Positions 58,854-64,000 of a stretch of DNA of 64,000 nt are shown in pieces. Made by a program: the position numbers and the translations under genes. The stretch's first letter is position 1, and each line of letters begins with the position of its first letter. The notes under the pieces are model-generated. The model was given only the letters and a program-made list of their open reading frames with translations. It was not told the origin of the DNA and did no database searches. This stretch comes from Phycisphaeraceae bacterium (lineage in GTDB: Bacteria > Planctomycetota > Phycisphaerae > Phycisphaerales > Phycisphaeraceae): the NCBI GenBank assembly GCA_020851465.1, contig JADZCR010000006.1, positions 744,001 through 808,000 on the forward strand. Direction: 5' to 3'.

Positions 58854-60518
58854 CTATTTCGCTTCGATCAGGTGATAGGCAAAGGCATCCGTAAGCGCCT
58901 GCCACGCAGCGTCCACGATATTCTCATTGACACCGATCGTCGTGAAATAATCCGCCGGAACTACCTGGCCGTTTTTTCGCACGGCAAACTCGATAATGAC
59001 GCGCACCTTCGCTGCTGACTCGGCAGTCGGGTTTACCACGCGAACCTTAAAGTCGCGTAGGTGGACCAACTTGAGCTGCGGGTAATGCGGCTCCAGACAT
59101 CGTCGCAGCGCACCATCCAGAGCGTTGACCGGTCCGTCCCCTTCCGCCACCTGATGTTCGATCTTGCCGTTGACTTCCAGCTTCACCGTGCTTTCGGTCG
59201 TCGGATTTCCGCCGTCACTCTTGGCGATTACACATCGGTATTGATGCAGCTTCCAGAAGGCGGGCCGCTTACCGAGTTCCTCATATAGAAGCAGCTCGAA
59301 ACTCGCGCGTGCTGCCTCGAATTGATAACCCTGATGCTCAAGATCCTGCACACGCTGGAGCACTTTACGCTGGACAGCCTTGTCGTCTTCGATGGAAAAC
59401 TTTTTCCCCAGCGTCGCCACGATATTGCTTGCACCGGAAAGCTCACTGACGAGCACCCGTCGAGAATTGCCAACCTTTTCAGGCGGTACGTGCTCATAGC
59501 TGTGCGCCAATCGCTGCACTGCGTGGACGTGCATTCCGCCCTTGTGCGCAAAGGCAGCACTACCGACGAACGGTTGATACGGCACCAGACTGAGGTTGGC
59601 CAGTTCGTAAACAAACCGGCTCGTATCTGTGAGTCGTTCGAGCGACTGCCCATGAAGGCACCTGTAGCGGTCGTGAAGTTTGAGATTGATGTTGGCGATG
59701 ACGGTAGTCAGATCCACGTTGCCGCAGCGTTCACCGATGCCATTGATAGTTCCCTGAACCTGGACACAGCCGGCTTCGACCGCAGCTAGTGAGTTGGCAA
59801 CAGCAAGCCCCGAATCGTTGTGACAATGGATGCCCAGCCTCGTATGTCGGGCCTCCGGGTTTGTCTTAAGAAATTTCTCAACTTCCGAGACAGCTTTCGC
59901 GATCCACGAAGGAAGCGATCCGCCGTTGGTGTCACAGAGGACGATTCGAGAAGCACCCCCTTCGAGCGCAGCCGCGAGAGTCTGCAAGGCGTATTCACGA
60001 TTAGCGCGGAATCCGTCGAAAAAGTGTTCCGCATCGTAAAAAACCTCACGACCAGCGCTCTTACAAAACGCCAGCGATTCCCGGATCATGGCAAGGTTTT
60101 CATCACGGGTGATGCGCAATATTTCATCCACGTGCAGATCCCACGTCTTGCCGACAATGGTGACCACGGGAGATTTCGCATCAACCAGAGCCTTCATTCC
60201 CGGATCATCATCGGGCGAGATACCCTTTCGGCGTGTCATGCCAAAGGCACAGATTTTCGCGCAGGAAAAAGTAAGCTTCCGCACCTCGTCAAAAAAAGCT
60301 GCGTCTTTGGGGTTCGACAAGGGATAGCCGCCCTCGATGTAGTCCACTCCCAGAGCGTCGAGATGCTGAGCGATCTTGAGCTTATCCACCAGACTCAGGG
60401 CAACGCCTTCACCCTGCGTACCGTCGCGTAGAGTCGTGTCATAGATCTCGATGTGACGGGGCGGAGCGGCTTCGGCAGTCATGGGGGAATGCTCAGGCTG
60501 CGTTTTCGAGGTCGTCAT
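58854..60518 (-). CDS. cimA: Citramalate synthase (CimA)
   Basis: 554 residues from ATG 60518 with AAGGAG six bases upstream. LeuA-like catalytic TIM barrel: IEIYDTTLRDGTQGEGVALS, DALGVDYIEGGYPLSNPKD, HCHNDSGLAVANSLAAVEAG, GTINGIGERCGNVDL; then a linker and a C-terminal LeuA dimer regulatory domain. CimA condenses acetyl-CoA and pyruvate to (R)-citramalate, the first step of the threonine-independent route to isoleucine. The 177-nt leader carries an isoleucine-rich leader peptide and terminator/antiterminator pairings (separate entries). Confidence 0.93.
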   Translation of the reverse strand: MTTSKTQPEHSPMTAEAAPPRHIEIYDTTLRDGTQGEGVALSLVDKLKIAQHLDALGVDYIEGGYPLSNPKDAAFFDEVRKLTFSCAKICAFGMTRRKGISPDDDPGMKALVDAKSPVVTIVGKTWDLHVDEILRITRDENLAMIRESLAFCKSAGREVFYDAEHFFDGFRANREYALQTLAAALEGGASRIVLCDTNGGSLPSWIAKAVSEVEKFLKTNPEARHTRLGIHCHNDSGLAVANSLAAVEAGCVQVQGTINGIGERCGNVDLTTVIANINLKLHDRYRCLHGQSLERLTDTSRFVYELANLSLVPYQPFVGSAAFAHKGGMHVHAVQRLAHSYEHVPPEKVGNSRRVLVSELSGASNIVATLGKKFSIEDDKAVQRKVLQRVQDLEHQGYQFEAARASFELLLYEELGKRPAFWKLHQYRCVIAKSDGGNPTTESTVKLEVNGKIEHQVAEGDGPVNALDGALRRCLEPHYPQLKLVHLRDFKVRVVNPTAESAAKVRVIIEFAVRKNGQVVPADYFTTIGVNENIVDAAWQALTDAFAYHLIEAK

Positions 60519-60587: not shown

Positions 60588-60610
60588 AAAAAAACCCTGC
60601 CAAGGCAGGG
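60588..60610 (-). terminator. Intrinsic terminator of the cimA attenuator (3:4 hairpin)
   Basis: Minus strand: CCCTGCC (60610-60604), a TT turn and GGCAGGG (60601-60595), then seven T (60594-60588). With steric limits this is a 6-bp stem closed by a CTTG tetraloop. It lies 70 bp before the cimA ATG and no gene ends before it. Confidence 0.93.
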
Positions 60611-60687
60611 TCTAGTGTCGATCAAATGCGATCACAGGCCCTGCCGGTCAAGGGTTGCTCCCAATAATCATGATGGTAATCAGGGCC
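60595..60687 (-). promoter_or_regulatory. Ribosome-mediated isoleucine attenuator of cimA
   Basis: Three mutually exclusive perfect 7-bp pairings are readable on the minus strand: segment 1 GGCCCTG (60687-60681, inside the leader peptide) with CAGGGCC of segment 2 (60643-60637); GGCAGGG of segment 2 (60645-60639) with segment 3 CCCTGCC (60610-60604); and segment 3 with segment 4 GGCAGGG (60601-60595). A ribosome stalled on the Ile codons just after segment 1 would free segment 2 for pairing with 3 and block the terminator. A ribosome finishing at the TGA covers segment 2 and lets 3:4 form. Confidence 0.78.
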
Positions 60688-60695
60688 AAGTTCAC
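60648..60695 (-). CDS. Isoleucine-rich cimA leader peptide (15 aa)
   Basis: GTG-initiated peptide MNLALITIMIIGSNP followed by TGA. Four of residues 6-11 are Ile (ATT, ATC, ATT, ATT) and two Leu precede them. The stop codon ends two bases before segment 2 of the attenuator. A -10-like TACAAT ends six bases before the GTG, placing the transcript start at the G itself, so no Shine-Dalgarno can exist. Longer in-frame starts up to 60830 would give a 60-residue frame, but only the last part has the leader-peptide pattern. Function: senses charged tRNA-Ile during transcription. Confidence 0.7.
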   Translation of the reverse strand: MNLALITIMIIGSNP

Positions 60696-60701
60696 GGGGA
60701 T

Positions 60702-60729
60702 ATTGTACCCGCCCCGGCCGGCGGAGCAA
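60702..60729 (-). promoter_or_regulatory. Candidate promoter of cimA leader
   Basis: TTGCTC (60729-60724), a 16-nt GC-rich spacer and TACAAT (60707-60702) on the minus strand. Seven bases on is 60695, the G of the leader-peptide GTG. Confidence 0.55.
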
Positions 60730-60880: not shown

Positions 60881-63800
60881 ATGCCCGTACCGACGGAAAC
60901 GTTTTGGAATATTAAGAAGCTCAACATCGTGTTTGCCGTGACGGCAGTGTTGCTCCTGGGCTCGATGCTCTGGATGCTCAAAGCCGACCACGAAAAGCCT
61001 TGGCGTGGTTATCAGGACGACGCCAAAACGTGGGAAGTCGCAATGAACCGCGACGCCGCGAAGAACGCGATGAACGCCGACCAGAAGGCGGAACTCGCCG
61101 AGCGCAAGCACGAGCTGGCGTTGTTACAGGCACAGAAGCCGGACGAGGAGCTAACACAGCTTCAGAAAGATCTGGATACTCAGGAACGGGATAAAGCCAC
61201 GCTAGACCTGCCCATGCGCAAGGACAAAGGCGAGCTGACTCCCCTGACTCAGGTCTATGAGAAAGCGCGGCTTGCTTACGGCGAAGACTCTCCCCAATCC
61301 AAAGATGCCTTCAAAGCCCTTCAGAAAAAGCAGAGTGAGTACGACCAGAAGTTTGCGAGGATGTCCGAGATTGATCTGGCAATCGAAGAACTGAGCCAGA
61401 AGATCGCAAACAAGCAGTCGGAAATCGCATCAAATAAAAAACGTATCGATGACCTGGAGCGAACAACCACCACTCTTCAGGAAAAAATCGACAAGCTAGA
61501 GCCGGACACGCTCGGTAAAAAGTTCACGGAAAAATTTCGAAACGCGCCGCTGTCCGACTGGTTCAATCCTGACCAGAAGGTCCAGCAGGTCGTCGTTCCT
61601 GACGTGCGTACTGACCTGAACTTCCTCACGGTCGAGACGATCGATCGATGCCAGACCTGCCACGTCAACATCGACAATCCCAAGTTCGAGGAATCGACGC
61701 TGATCGGATTTGTCGAACGTCAGCTGGCGATCAGCGGCGGTCAGGCGGTGAACGAACTCGACCAGCCGCTGGTGATGACCGGTTTCTGGAAGCGTGCGAT
61801 TGACGTGCTCGGAGAGCAGGCGCAGACCAAAGCTAAAGCAGCACGGGAAAAGGCACTGACCGCGATCAACGATTTGCTGTCCGCGCAGGGTGGGAAAGCC
61901 ATCGACGACGCAGGCCTGGATGCCTTTGTTGAAAATTCAGGACAGGCAGCACTTGGCGCCCAACCGGTGCCCGGCAGCGAACCACGCCTGCCTGAGAATG
62001 CCACGGATGCTCAAAAGGCGGAACACCAGAAGGCTCACGCCGAGTGGGAAAGCCGAAATAAGGCACTTGCTGCGTGGAATACTGCACGAGATCAATTCCG
62101 TGCCCGCCAGCGTCAGGCCGTTCTCTATATAGAGGACCTCAAGCGGATCGTCCGCGAGGAAGCGGGAGCGGAGCAATCCAAGGAAGTTCGTGGGTTGTAC
62201 CGCCACGCATTGGTTGACGCCTATAACGTGCAGCGGAAAAAGGCTGGCTTATCACCCGTCAGTGCCAGCTCGGTGTTGCTGGCTCACCCACGGCTTGATC
62301 TCTATGCCGAAGCTGAATCAAAGCACCCGATGAAGACGATGGGTTGCACCGTCTGCCATGAAGGGTCGGGACAGGAGACGCAATTCGAGCATACCGCCCA
62401 TTCGCCACGCGACATCTGGGTGGATGCAACAACCGGTGCGCCGGTCCCCGCATTCCTGCTCAAGAGCGACAAACACGCGCCAGGCAACGGAAAGGACGAC
62501 GCCAAAGTTGCCGACCACGGCACTGCAACGGTAACGCTGGCGTCCGCGAAAGCTGGTGAGACTCACGACAACATCGCGGCATCTCAGCAGGACGCGCATG
62601 CTGGTGGTAACGGATCGTCTGGTCACGGCGTCTCCACTCATCAGGACATCAAGCTCACCGACCCGAATAATCCGGCTCCCTTTGCACCCGAGGAGCCGCA
62701 CCACGACAGCGAAGCGATCTACACAAGCATCGCCACCGACGCATCAGGCACCCGACAGGCGATCACGCAGGAGGAATACTGGACTCGCAAGTACGGCTGG
62801 GCAGAGGTCCATTACATGCACTGGGAAAAGCCGATGAACACGCTCGACTACATCGAGTCGAGCTGCTCACGCTGCCACAGTGAGGTCTTTGATATTCGTG
62901 ACGACGCGCCCCGGCTCTTTGAAGGACGCAGACTCTTTGCACAACTTGGCTGCGCCAACTGCCACCTTGTCGAGCAGATCGGACATTCACTCGATCTGAA
63001 GAAAGTCGGGCCGAGCCTCGCGCATTTGCACGACAAACTTTCGCCGGAGATGACCGCCAGTTGGATCTGGTCACCTCGCGCATTTCGCCCGATGACGCGG
63101 ATGCCGCATTTCTTTATGCTTGAGAACAATTCAAGCCCGATCGACATCCTGCGCACGCGAACAGAAGTCGCAGCGATTACCTACTACCTCCTCAATGAAC
63201 CGCTGGGCTATGAGACGACACTGCATGACTTGCAGAAAAAGAAGCAGCAGTTGCAAGCTGAGCTTTCTCAGCCGATGGATGAAGGCACGCGCAAGCTCAA
63301 GCTCGGCGATGCAGCCAAGCTTAACGACGAGCTGAAGGAAACCGCTCATCTTGTGGCGCTGAATACCTACAACCCCGAAAAACCACCGGCGACCGAAGGC
63401 GACGTGGCAAAAGGCCGTGAGCTGTTCACCAGCGTCGGGTGCATGGCGTGCCACACCAATATGGCGGAGCAAGGCGAGACGATGATCGTCGAAGATCTCG
63501 TCAAGCGCAGCGGCTTAGGCGTGAAGGAAGCAAAGTCAAAATACACCTCGATGAGCTATAACCAGCGACACTGGTACGCGCTGGAGCATCTAAGCGAAAA
63601 GCTTATGCTCGTCGGGCCGGAGCTTTCAGGTGTCGGCACCAAGCTCAAAGCTGGACGAACCAGCGAGCAGGCTCGCGCATGGACCTACGACTGGGTACGG
63701 AATCCGCGTCACTACTCGTCCTACACGATCATGCCCAGCTTCCGCCTGTCGGAAGAAGAGGCAAATGATCTGACGGCCTATCTGCTCTCGCTGGAGAGAC

Positions 63801-64000
63801 CTGACTACAAGCCGGAAAACTTCCTGGCTTTGGACGATTCGGGAAAGACGATGCTCACGGAGCTGGTTGCCGGCCTCAAATCAGGGCAGGTAACGACCGC
63901 GTATGCCCGTGATATTCTCGCAGGCAAAGTCGCTGACCCTGCCGTCCCCAACAGCACAGCTCATGCATGGAGCGATGAGGAAAAGCTTCACTTCCTTGGC
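60881..64000 (+). CDS. Large multihaem c-type cytochrome, N-terminal anchor, 3' end outside window
   Basis: The frame is open from ATG 60881 to the window end (1,040 codons so far). An N-terminal membrane helix (residues about 16-35, IVFAVTAVLLLGSMLWML) anchors it, then coiled-coil-rich Lys/Glu/Gln sequence to about 230. Five CXXCH haem sites are seen: Cys257 (CQTCH), Cys489 (CTVCH), Cys662 (CSRCH), Cys691 (CANCH) and Cys854 (CMACH). The last two belong to class I-like domains followed by candidate Met ligands (MTRMPHFFM; TIMPSFRLSEEEANDLTAYL). Likely carries electrons at the outer face of the cytoplasmic membrane. Divergent from cimA. Confidence 0.9.
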   Translation, partial: MPVPTETFWNIKKLNIVFAVTAVLLLGSMLWMLKADHEKPWRGYQDDAKTWEVAMNRDAAKNAMNADQKAELAERKHELALLQAQKPDEELTQLQKDLDTQERDKATLDLPMRKDKGELTPLTQVYEKARLAYGEDSPQSKDAFKALQKKQSEYDQKFARMSEIDLAIEELSQKIANKQSEIASNKKRIDDLERTTTTLQEKIDKLEPDTLGKKFTEKFRNAPLSDWFNPDQKVQQVVVPDVRTDLNFLTVETIDRCQTCHVNIDNPKFEESTLIGFVERQLAISGGQAVNELDQPLVMTGFWKRAIDVLGEQAQTKAKAAREKALTAINDLLSAQGGKAIDDAGLDAFVENSGQAALGAQPVPGSEPRLPENATDAQKAEHQKAHAEWESRNKALAAWNTARDQFRARQRQAVLYIEDLKRIVREEAGAEQSKEVRGLYRHALVDAYNVQRKKAGLSPVSASSVLLAHPRLDLYAEAESKHPMKTMGCTVCHEGSGQETQFEHTAHSPRDIWVDATTGAPVPAFLLKSDKHAPGNGKDDAKVADHGTATVTLASAKAGETHDNIAASQQDAHAGGNGSSGHGVSTHQDIKLTDPNNPAPFAPEEPHHDSEAIYTSIATDASGTRQAITQEEYWTRKYGWAEVHYMHWEKPMNTLDYIESSCSRCHSEVFDIRDDAPRLFEGRRLFAQLGCANCHLVEQIGHSLDLKKVGPSLAHLHDKLSPEMTASWIWSPRAFRPMTRMPHFFMLENNSSPIDILRTRTEVAAITYYLLNEPLGYETTLHDLQKKKQQLQAELSQPMDEGTRKLKLGDAAKLNDELKETAHLVALNTYNPEKPPATEGDVAKGRELFTSVGCMACHTNMAEQGETMIVEDLVKRSGLGVKEAKSKYTSMSYNQRHWYALEHLSEKLMLVGPELSGVGTKLKAGRTSEQARAWTYDWVRNPRHYSSYTIMPSFRLSEEEANDLTAYLLSLERPDYKPENFLALDDSGKTMLTELVAGLKSGQVTTAYARDILAGKVADPAVPNSTAHAWSDEEKLHFLG

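Follow-up and report, generated by a model that had tools for sequence, protein, structure and literature searches.

What controls cimA, the gene for citramalate synthase, in a planctomycete? In the 64 kb stretch of DNA that we analysed (the window), a short open reading frame with a run of isoleucine codons lies upstream of cimA and is followed by an intrinsic terminator. Is this a ribosome-mediated attenuator that reads charged tRNA-Ile, or do the parts lie together for another reason?

CimA and isoleucine synthesis

The predicted CimA protein scored 634 bits against the TIGR00977 equivalog (NCBIfam; cut-off 450), the test for citramalate synthase. Every leuA model scored this protein below its own cut-off. 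The preliminary description had called the gene a citramalate synthase and its host a planctomycete, and both assignments stand: the host belongs to the Phycisphaerales (Planctomycetota), its family probably being Phycisphaeraceae, and the named related loci come from Phycisphaera, Phycisphaeraceae and other Planctomycetota. A search with TIGR01127 alone found no threonine deaminase above the cut-off in the same genome (best score 92 bits against 379; genome 95.5% complete). Because no such enzyme passed that cut-off, CimA is probably the sole route into isoleucine in this organism, as judged from gene content. cimA was present in 46 of 51 genomes of its own family and in 219 of 397 genomes of the class.

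Leader, segments and terminator upstream of cimA

The upstream region contains the following features.

60881-64000, plus strand: divergent gene with several CxxCH motifs, open at its 3' end; multihaem cytochrome c-like
60707-60702, minus strand: -10-like promoter element TACAAT, read from the sequence, ending 6 nt from the leader start codon
60695-60648, minus strand: leader ORF GTG...TGA, 15 codons, MNLALITIMIIGSNP, read from the sequence and in the same place in 39/49 loci
60687-60681, minus strand: segment 1, GGCCCTG, the 5' arm of the protector inside the leader ORF; pairs with CAGGGCC of segment 2
60680-60663, minus strand: regulatory region ATT ACC ATC ATG ATT ATT (Ile-Thr-Ile-Met-Ile-Ile); in the folding model, stalling here frees 2:3
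60645-60637, minus strand: segment 2, GGCAGGGCC; CAGGGCC (60643-60637) pairs with segment 1 and GGCAGGG (60645-60639) with segment 3
60610-60604, minus strand: segment 3, CCCTGCC, 3' arm of the antiterminator and 5' arm of the terminator (folding, alignment)
60601-60588, minus strand: intrinsic terminator, with segment 4 GGCAGGG (60601-60595) and a T7 tract (60594-60588) (folding, pair counts)
60529-60524, minus strand: Shine-Dalgarno sequence of cimA, AAGGAG, read from the sequence
58854-60518, minus strand: cimA, 554 aa, citramalate synthase (TIGR00977); an HMGL-like catalytic domain and a LeuA_dimer allosteric domain

The leader encodes isoleucine at codons 6, 8, 10 and 11 (first bases 60680, 60674, 60668 and 60665, minus strand). 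The 15-codon leader with four Ile codons had been noted before and all its coordinates hold, with the start codon now refined to GTG. The Ile codons begin directly after segment 1, and the stop codon lies two bases ahead of segment 2, as had also been described. The mutually exclusive 1:2, 2:3 and 3:4 pairings and the T7 tail were verified on the minus strand. Segment 2 can enter either 1:2 or 2:3 through its GGCAGGG and CAGGGCC motifs, which share bases. The terminator reads CCCTGCC-TT-GGCAGGG-T7, and its predicted stem reaches 8-9 bp once flanking pairs are included, longer than first described. We ruled out that it marks the end of the neighbouring upstream gene, since that gene is divergent.

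Short ORFs are frequent, and one could pair by chance with a nearby terminator. We shuffled the upstream region 1,500 times with dinucleotide frequencies kept: a strong terminator appeared in 17 shuffles and a correctly placed Ile-rich ORF in none. Scanning both strands of the whole 64 kb window returned this one site alone. Together with the repetition of the arrangement in 39/49 loci, comparative evidence that by itself already refutes chance, these results make a fortuitous origin extremely improbable.

Conservation of the cimA leader

We gathered upstream DNA from 176 cimA loci. The main comparison set held 49 of these, from the window's own family and one sister family of the Phycisphaerales, the window included. 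An Ile-rich leader followed by a terminator preceded cimA in 39/49 loci, mostly 26-43 nt apart; the leader frame of the window was fixed by hand in this set of 39. Among the other 10 loci, which had no clear attenuator, L062 was degenerate and nine lacked both an Ile run and a comparable nearby terminator. Isoleucine made up 27.4% of the 689 leader codons, compared to 4.2% in genes, and the Ile codons were kept while the remaining residues varied. This is what the isoleucine reading of the leader frame had predicted for relatives. Leader Ile codons were mostly ATT (119/189, 63%); genes favour ATC (720/880, 82%). The ATT preference may make decoding slower or benefit the RNA structure.

Most relatives have their UAG stop codon within segment 2 itself, in a CGG-UAG-GGC motif that pairs with CCCUGCCG. 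In the window and in L052, C replaces the U of this motif and the stop lies just upstream instead.

Outside the two families, 39 more loci passed a looser criterion of at least three Ile codons, and part of these were checked by eye. Genomes with cimA Ile leaders included Gimesia, Tepidisphaeraceae, Sedimentisphaerales and Pirellulaceae. The Gemmata leader mixes Ile and Val and is a weaker example. We found no cimA Ile leader among the Omnitrophota, Bacillota, Nitrospirota, Thermodesulfobacteriota and Geobacter-type loci examined.

Two further observations concern the cimA loci. Leaders of other Phycisphaerae families and Gemmata mix Ile with Val (RAGIIAVVIVPCVP, RAGIVVVVVAAGG, MRTVAIIATVVVITTG; loci L074, L107, L120, L217, L229 and similar), as if both amino acids were sensed. 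Elsewhere, leuA adjoins cimA in the same direction, ~60-125 bases apart (G064:C69, G133:C244, G148:C59 and G188:C95), and this proximity may explain why these four lack a separate cimA attenuator.

A probable leaderless start

We scored a -10-like box as at least 4 of 6 consensus positions. Such a box ended 6-10 nt ahead of the leader start codon in 32/39 loci, compared to 4.8% of random positions. No convincing -35 box was found in the promoter region of the window. From the spacing, the predicted +1 in the window is the G of the GTG. Because the distance from the -10 element to the start codon is so short, the leader mRNA is probably leaderless.

Covariation of the three helices

We compared segment duplexes from the same species with duplexes swapped between species (10,000 permutations); the species are related, so the z values serve as guides and not as exact probabilities. 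In the order set, native 1:2 duplexes averaged −20.1 kcal/mol and swapped ones −17.4 kcal/mol (z −5.7, 0/10,000 permutations). Native duplexes were also more favourable than swapped ones for 3:4 (z −6.0) and, more weakly, for 2:3 (z −2.6), the latter because the core of this helix is nearly invariant within the order. Among other planctomycetes, the advantage of native duplexes was z −7.4 for 2:3 and z −12.3 for 3:4. In the alignment, standard pairs filled 97.4% of the cells for 3:4 and 97.0% for 2:3; both partners had changed at 4/8 pairs of 3:4 and 1/7 pairs of 2:3.

All three helices thus covary by this measure, which is the comparative result that the proposed segments called for. For the predicted antiterminator 2:3, exclusive with the terminator, covariation support is modest within the order and strong across the phylum.

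Folding model and stall positions

We modelled a ribosome whose footprint ends 13 nt past the A-site codon and folded the remaining free RNA at equilibrium. In the window, the computed probability of the terminator, P(terminator), averaged 0.0003 over the Ile codons and did not exceed 0.001 whichever Ile codon occupied the A site. It climbed at codons 12-14 and reached 0.999 at the stop codon. Across the 39 loci, modelled P(terminator) had a mean of 0.34 for a ribosome at Ile codons, compared to 1.00 for one at the stop. The stop-codon value exceeded the Ile-codon value in 39/39 loci and was ≥0.98 in all loci except L055 (0.89). At Ile codons, P(terminator) was <0.95 in 34/39 loci and, in this equilibrium model, >0.9 in 6/39. 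The zone of low P(terminator) lies 13 to 6 codons ahead of the stop, and the Ile codons of the 39 loci cluster there. In most Gimesia, Gemmata and Sedimentisphaerales loci, 3:4 was more stable throughout, and the equilibrium model does not discriminate there, although these loci have plain 2:3 complementarity (in Gemmata CTTCGGGGT:ACCCCGAAG, 9 bp).

Plain minimum-energy folding of the whole leader was misleading, as it yielded 2:3 plus extra pairs, so we used stepwise folding and ribosome-footprint folding. The transcript up to, but not including, segment 3 had 1:2 as its minimum-energy fold. At equilibrium the naked full-length leader of the window preferred 2:3 (P(terminator) 0.08). Repression in the absence of a ribosome would therefore hinge on 1:2 forming first. 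In these computations the Ile codons fall where a stalled ribosome would permit antitermination.

These data also bear on whether cimA is simply lowered without isoleucine sensing, by a constitutive terminator or by an upstream ORF with translational coupling. A strong terminator does lie in the 5' region. A constitutive terminator would not account for the covariation of terminator, antiterminator and protector helices, or for Ile codons placed where, in the folding model, stalling would antiterminate. Coupling is unlikely because the leader stop lies 129 nt from the cimA start (60518), which is too far. We consider this explanation very improbable.

Ile and Leu leaders at other genes

We examined the upstream regions of other amino acid genes. 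An Ile leader with a terminator preceded ileS in 13/30 family members, the window's own genome included. In the same family, 25/30 leuA loci had a Leu-rich leader (28% Leu), with the UAG stop again mostly inside segment 2 (CCGGAUAGGG:CCCUGUCCGG); in the phylum sample, a Leu leader was found at 7/29 leuA loci. Leaders of this type were absent upstream of ilvB (0/30), trpE (0/20) and hisG (0/20). Searching with the shared core pattern returned five genomes with the Ile version ahead of ileS and one with the Leu version ahead of leuS. The same pattern also matched at G334:C1:4129787-4129847, away from cimA and leuA. The loci named below are the two in the window's own genome (G000) and the leuS case.

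G000:C2 144273-146828, minus strand: ileS, with leader MPPNRTIFRIIITITITSTHSR and an attenuator with a CGG-TAG-GGC core (L422 / L485)
G000:C6 386216-387703: leuA, with a Leu-rich leader and attenuator (L309 / L465)
G325:C202:26389-26451, minus strand: Leu-rich leader MTTSPSTFAAGLKLPELLGLLARVG and a like attenuator upstream of leuS (L404, one case)

A gene-blind scan of 1.25 of the 3.4 Mb (37%) of the window's own genome, ranked by the 2:3 helix, placed ileS first, leuA second and cimA third.

An amino acid gene preceded by an intrinsic terminator and an alternative fold could also belong to a riboswitch that binds isoleucine or a T-box that binds tRNA, with the Ile codons incidental. We searched the window and 20 relatives with Rfam. 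No family reached its gathering score there: neither the T-box covariance model nor the known leader families (Leu, Thr, His and Trp leaders, ilvB motifs and others) gave a match. Conservation is found in the Ile codons of the leader and in the segments that pair, no stretch resembling an aptamer is conserved, and leuA carries Leu codons within the same architecture. A riboswitch or T-box is therefore highly improbable.

On balance, we favour the view that these loci form an undescribed BCAA attenuation network of the Planctomycetota, in which leaderless Ile-rich leaders would act on cimA and ileS and Leu-rich leaders on leuA and leuS. In Phycisphaerales it would operate through a UAG embedded in the antiterminator arm.

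Proposed mechanism

We conclude with high confidence that cimA is controlled from its upstream region by ribosome-mediated (leader-peptide) transcription attenuation, with charged tRNA-Ile as the signal sensed. The conserved leader Ile codons and the covarying segments support the isoleucine attenuator of classical leader-peptide geometry that had been suggested. Measured against what defines such an attenuator, the locus has a short ORF, predicted to be translated, in which codons for the end product cluster (4 Ile in 15 codons). A predicted intrinsic terminator, 3:4, lies upstream of the structural gene; 2:3 is exclusive with 3:4 and covaries; and in the protector 1:2, segment 1 lies at or before the regulatory codons. 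In the computed states, an Ile stall frees 2:3 and a ribosome at the stop blocks it. Runs of regulatory codons are not proof of attenuation: in Streptomyces coelicolor, mutations of such codons ahead of ilvB are reported to have had no effect (PMC1262725). On the combined comparative and computed data, the cimA attenuator is very likely functional.

In the proposed mechanism, RNA polymerase would start on the GTG or right next to it, and the 15-codon leader would be translated by a ribosome from the leaderless 5' end. When Ile-tRNA is ample, the ribosome would reach the stop codon and cover segment 2, the 3:4 terminator would form and cimA would be off. When Ile-tRNA is scarce, the ribosome would stall on any of the four Ile codons and cover segment 1 but not segment 2. 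With the ribosome stalled, 2:3 would pair, the terminator would be blocked and cimA would be transcribed. If no ribosome were present, 1:2 would form first and the terminator would be favoured. We infer the transcription start, termination in vivo and the response to isoleucine as parts of this model.

Comparison with known systems

Compartmentation in planctomycetes leaves transcription-translation coupling in this phylum an open question. Attenuation needs a ribosome close behind RNA polymerase; if the model is true, transcription and translation would therefore be coupled in planctomycetes, despite compartments proposed to separate them. The attenuator set offers a test of this coupling.

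In the literature searched, we found no report that links leader-peptide attenuation to cimA or to Planctomycetes, although the 2010 Lopatovskaya survey may hold an earlier prediction. The suggestion that a cimA attenuator is undescribed thus holds within that literature and Rfam, from which Planctomycetota leaders of this kind are absent. Short upstream ORFs of Planctomycetes have been counted by gene distance, with cimA, citramalate and isoleucine unmentioned (PMC4833913). In 2010, leader-peptide attenuation was stated to be known only in Proteobacteria and Actinobacteria, to which Firmicutes were added (PMC2965389). The conserved, covarying loci described here would carry attenuation into a deeply separate phylum, Planctomycetota, with cimA and ileS as added targets, and one simple architecture would serve two amino acids at four genes. 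The mechanism itself is classical. Its novelty lies in the phylum, in cimA and ileS as targets, in the accompanying Leu system and in a probably leaderless start joined with a stop inside the antiterminator.

Proteobacterial ilvL, leuL and thrL are leader-peptide attenuators of ilv, leu and thr. They share with the cimA leader an end-product-rich leader, exclusive 1:2, 2:3 and 3:4 pairings, a U-tract terminator and a biosynthetic gene downstream. The planctomycete system differs in its phylum and in its target, which is cimA instead of ilvGMEDA or leuABCD. Its leader has little Leu and almost no Val and is probably leaderless, and most cimA relatives hold the UAG stop inside the antiterminator arm. 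Sinorhizobium meliloti trpL is a leaderless leader-peptide attenuator; translation of its leader peptide begins at the mRNA 5' end, as predicted for the leader described here. It differs in that trpL senses Trp, not Ile, and belongs to an alphaproteobacterium.

Among actinobacteria, ilvB and leuS leader candidates are known, including predicted leuS attenuators in Streptomyces (PMC1262725), and ilvBNC of C. glutamicum is a leader-peptide example (PMC11857589). BCAA-rich leader peptides and terminators are common to those systems and the planctomycete loci. The actinobacterial target is ilvB, with mixed Ile/Val/Leu codons, whereas planctomycete ilvB has no such leader. Actinobacterial leuA carries a LEU element and ileS carries T-boxes; in planctomycetes, candidate leader peptides stand at cimA, ileS and leuA.
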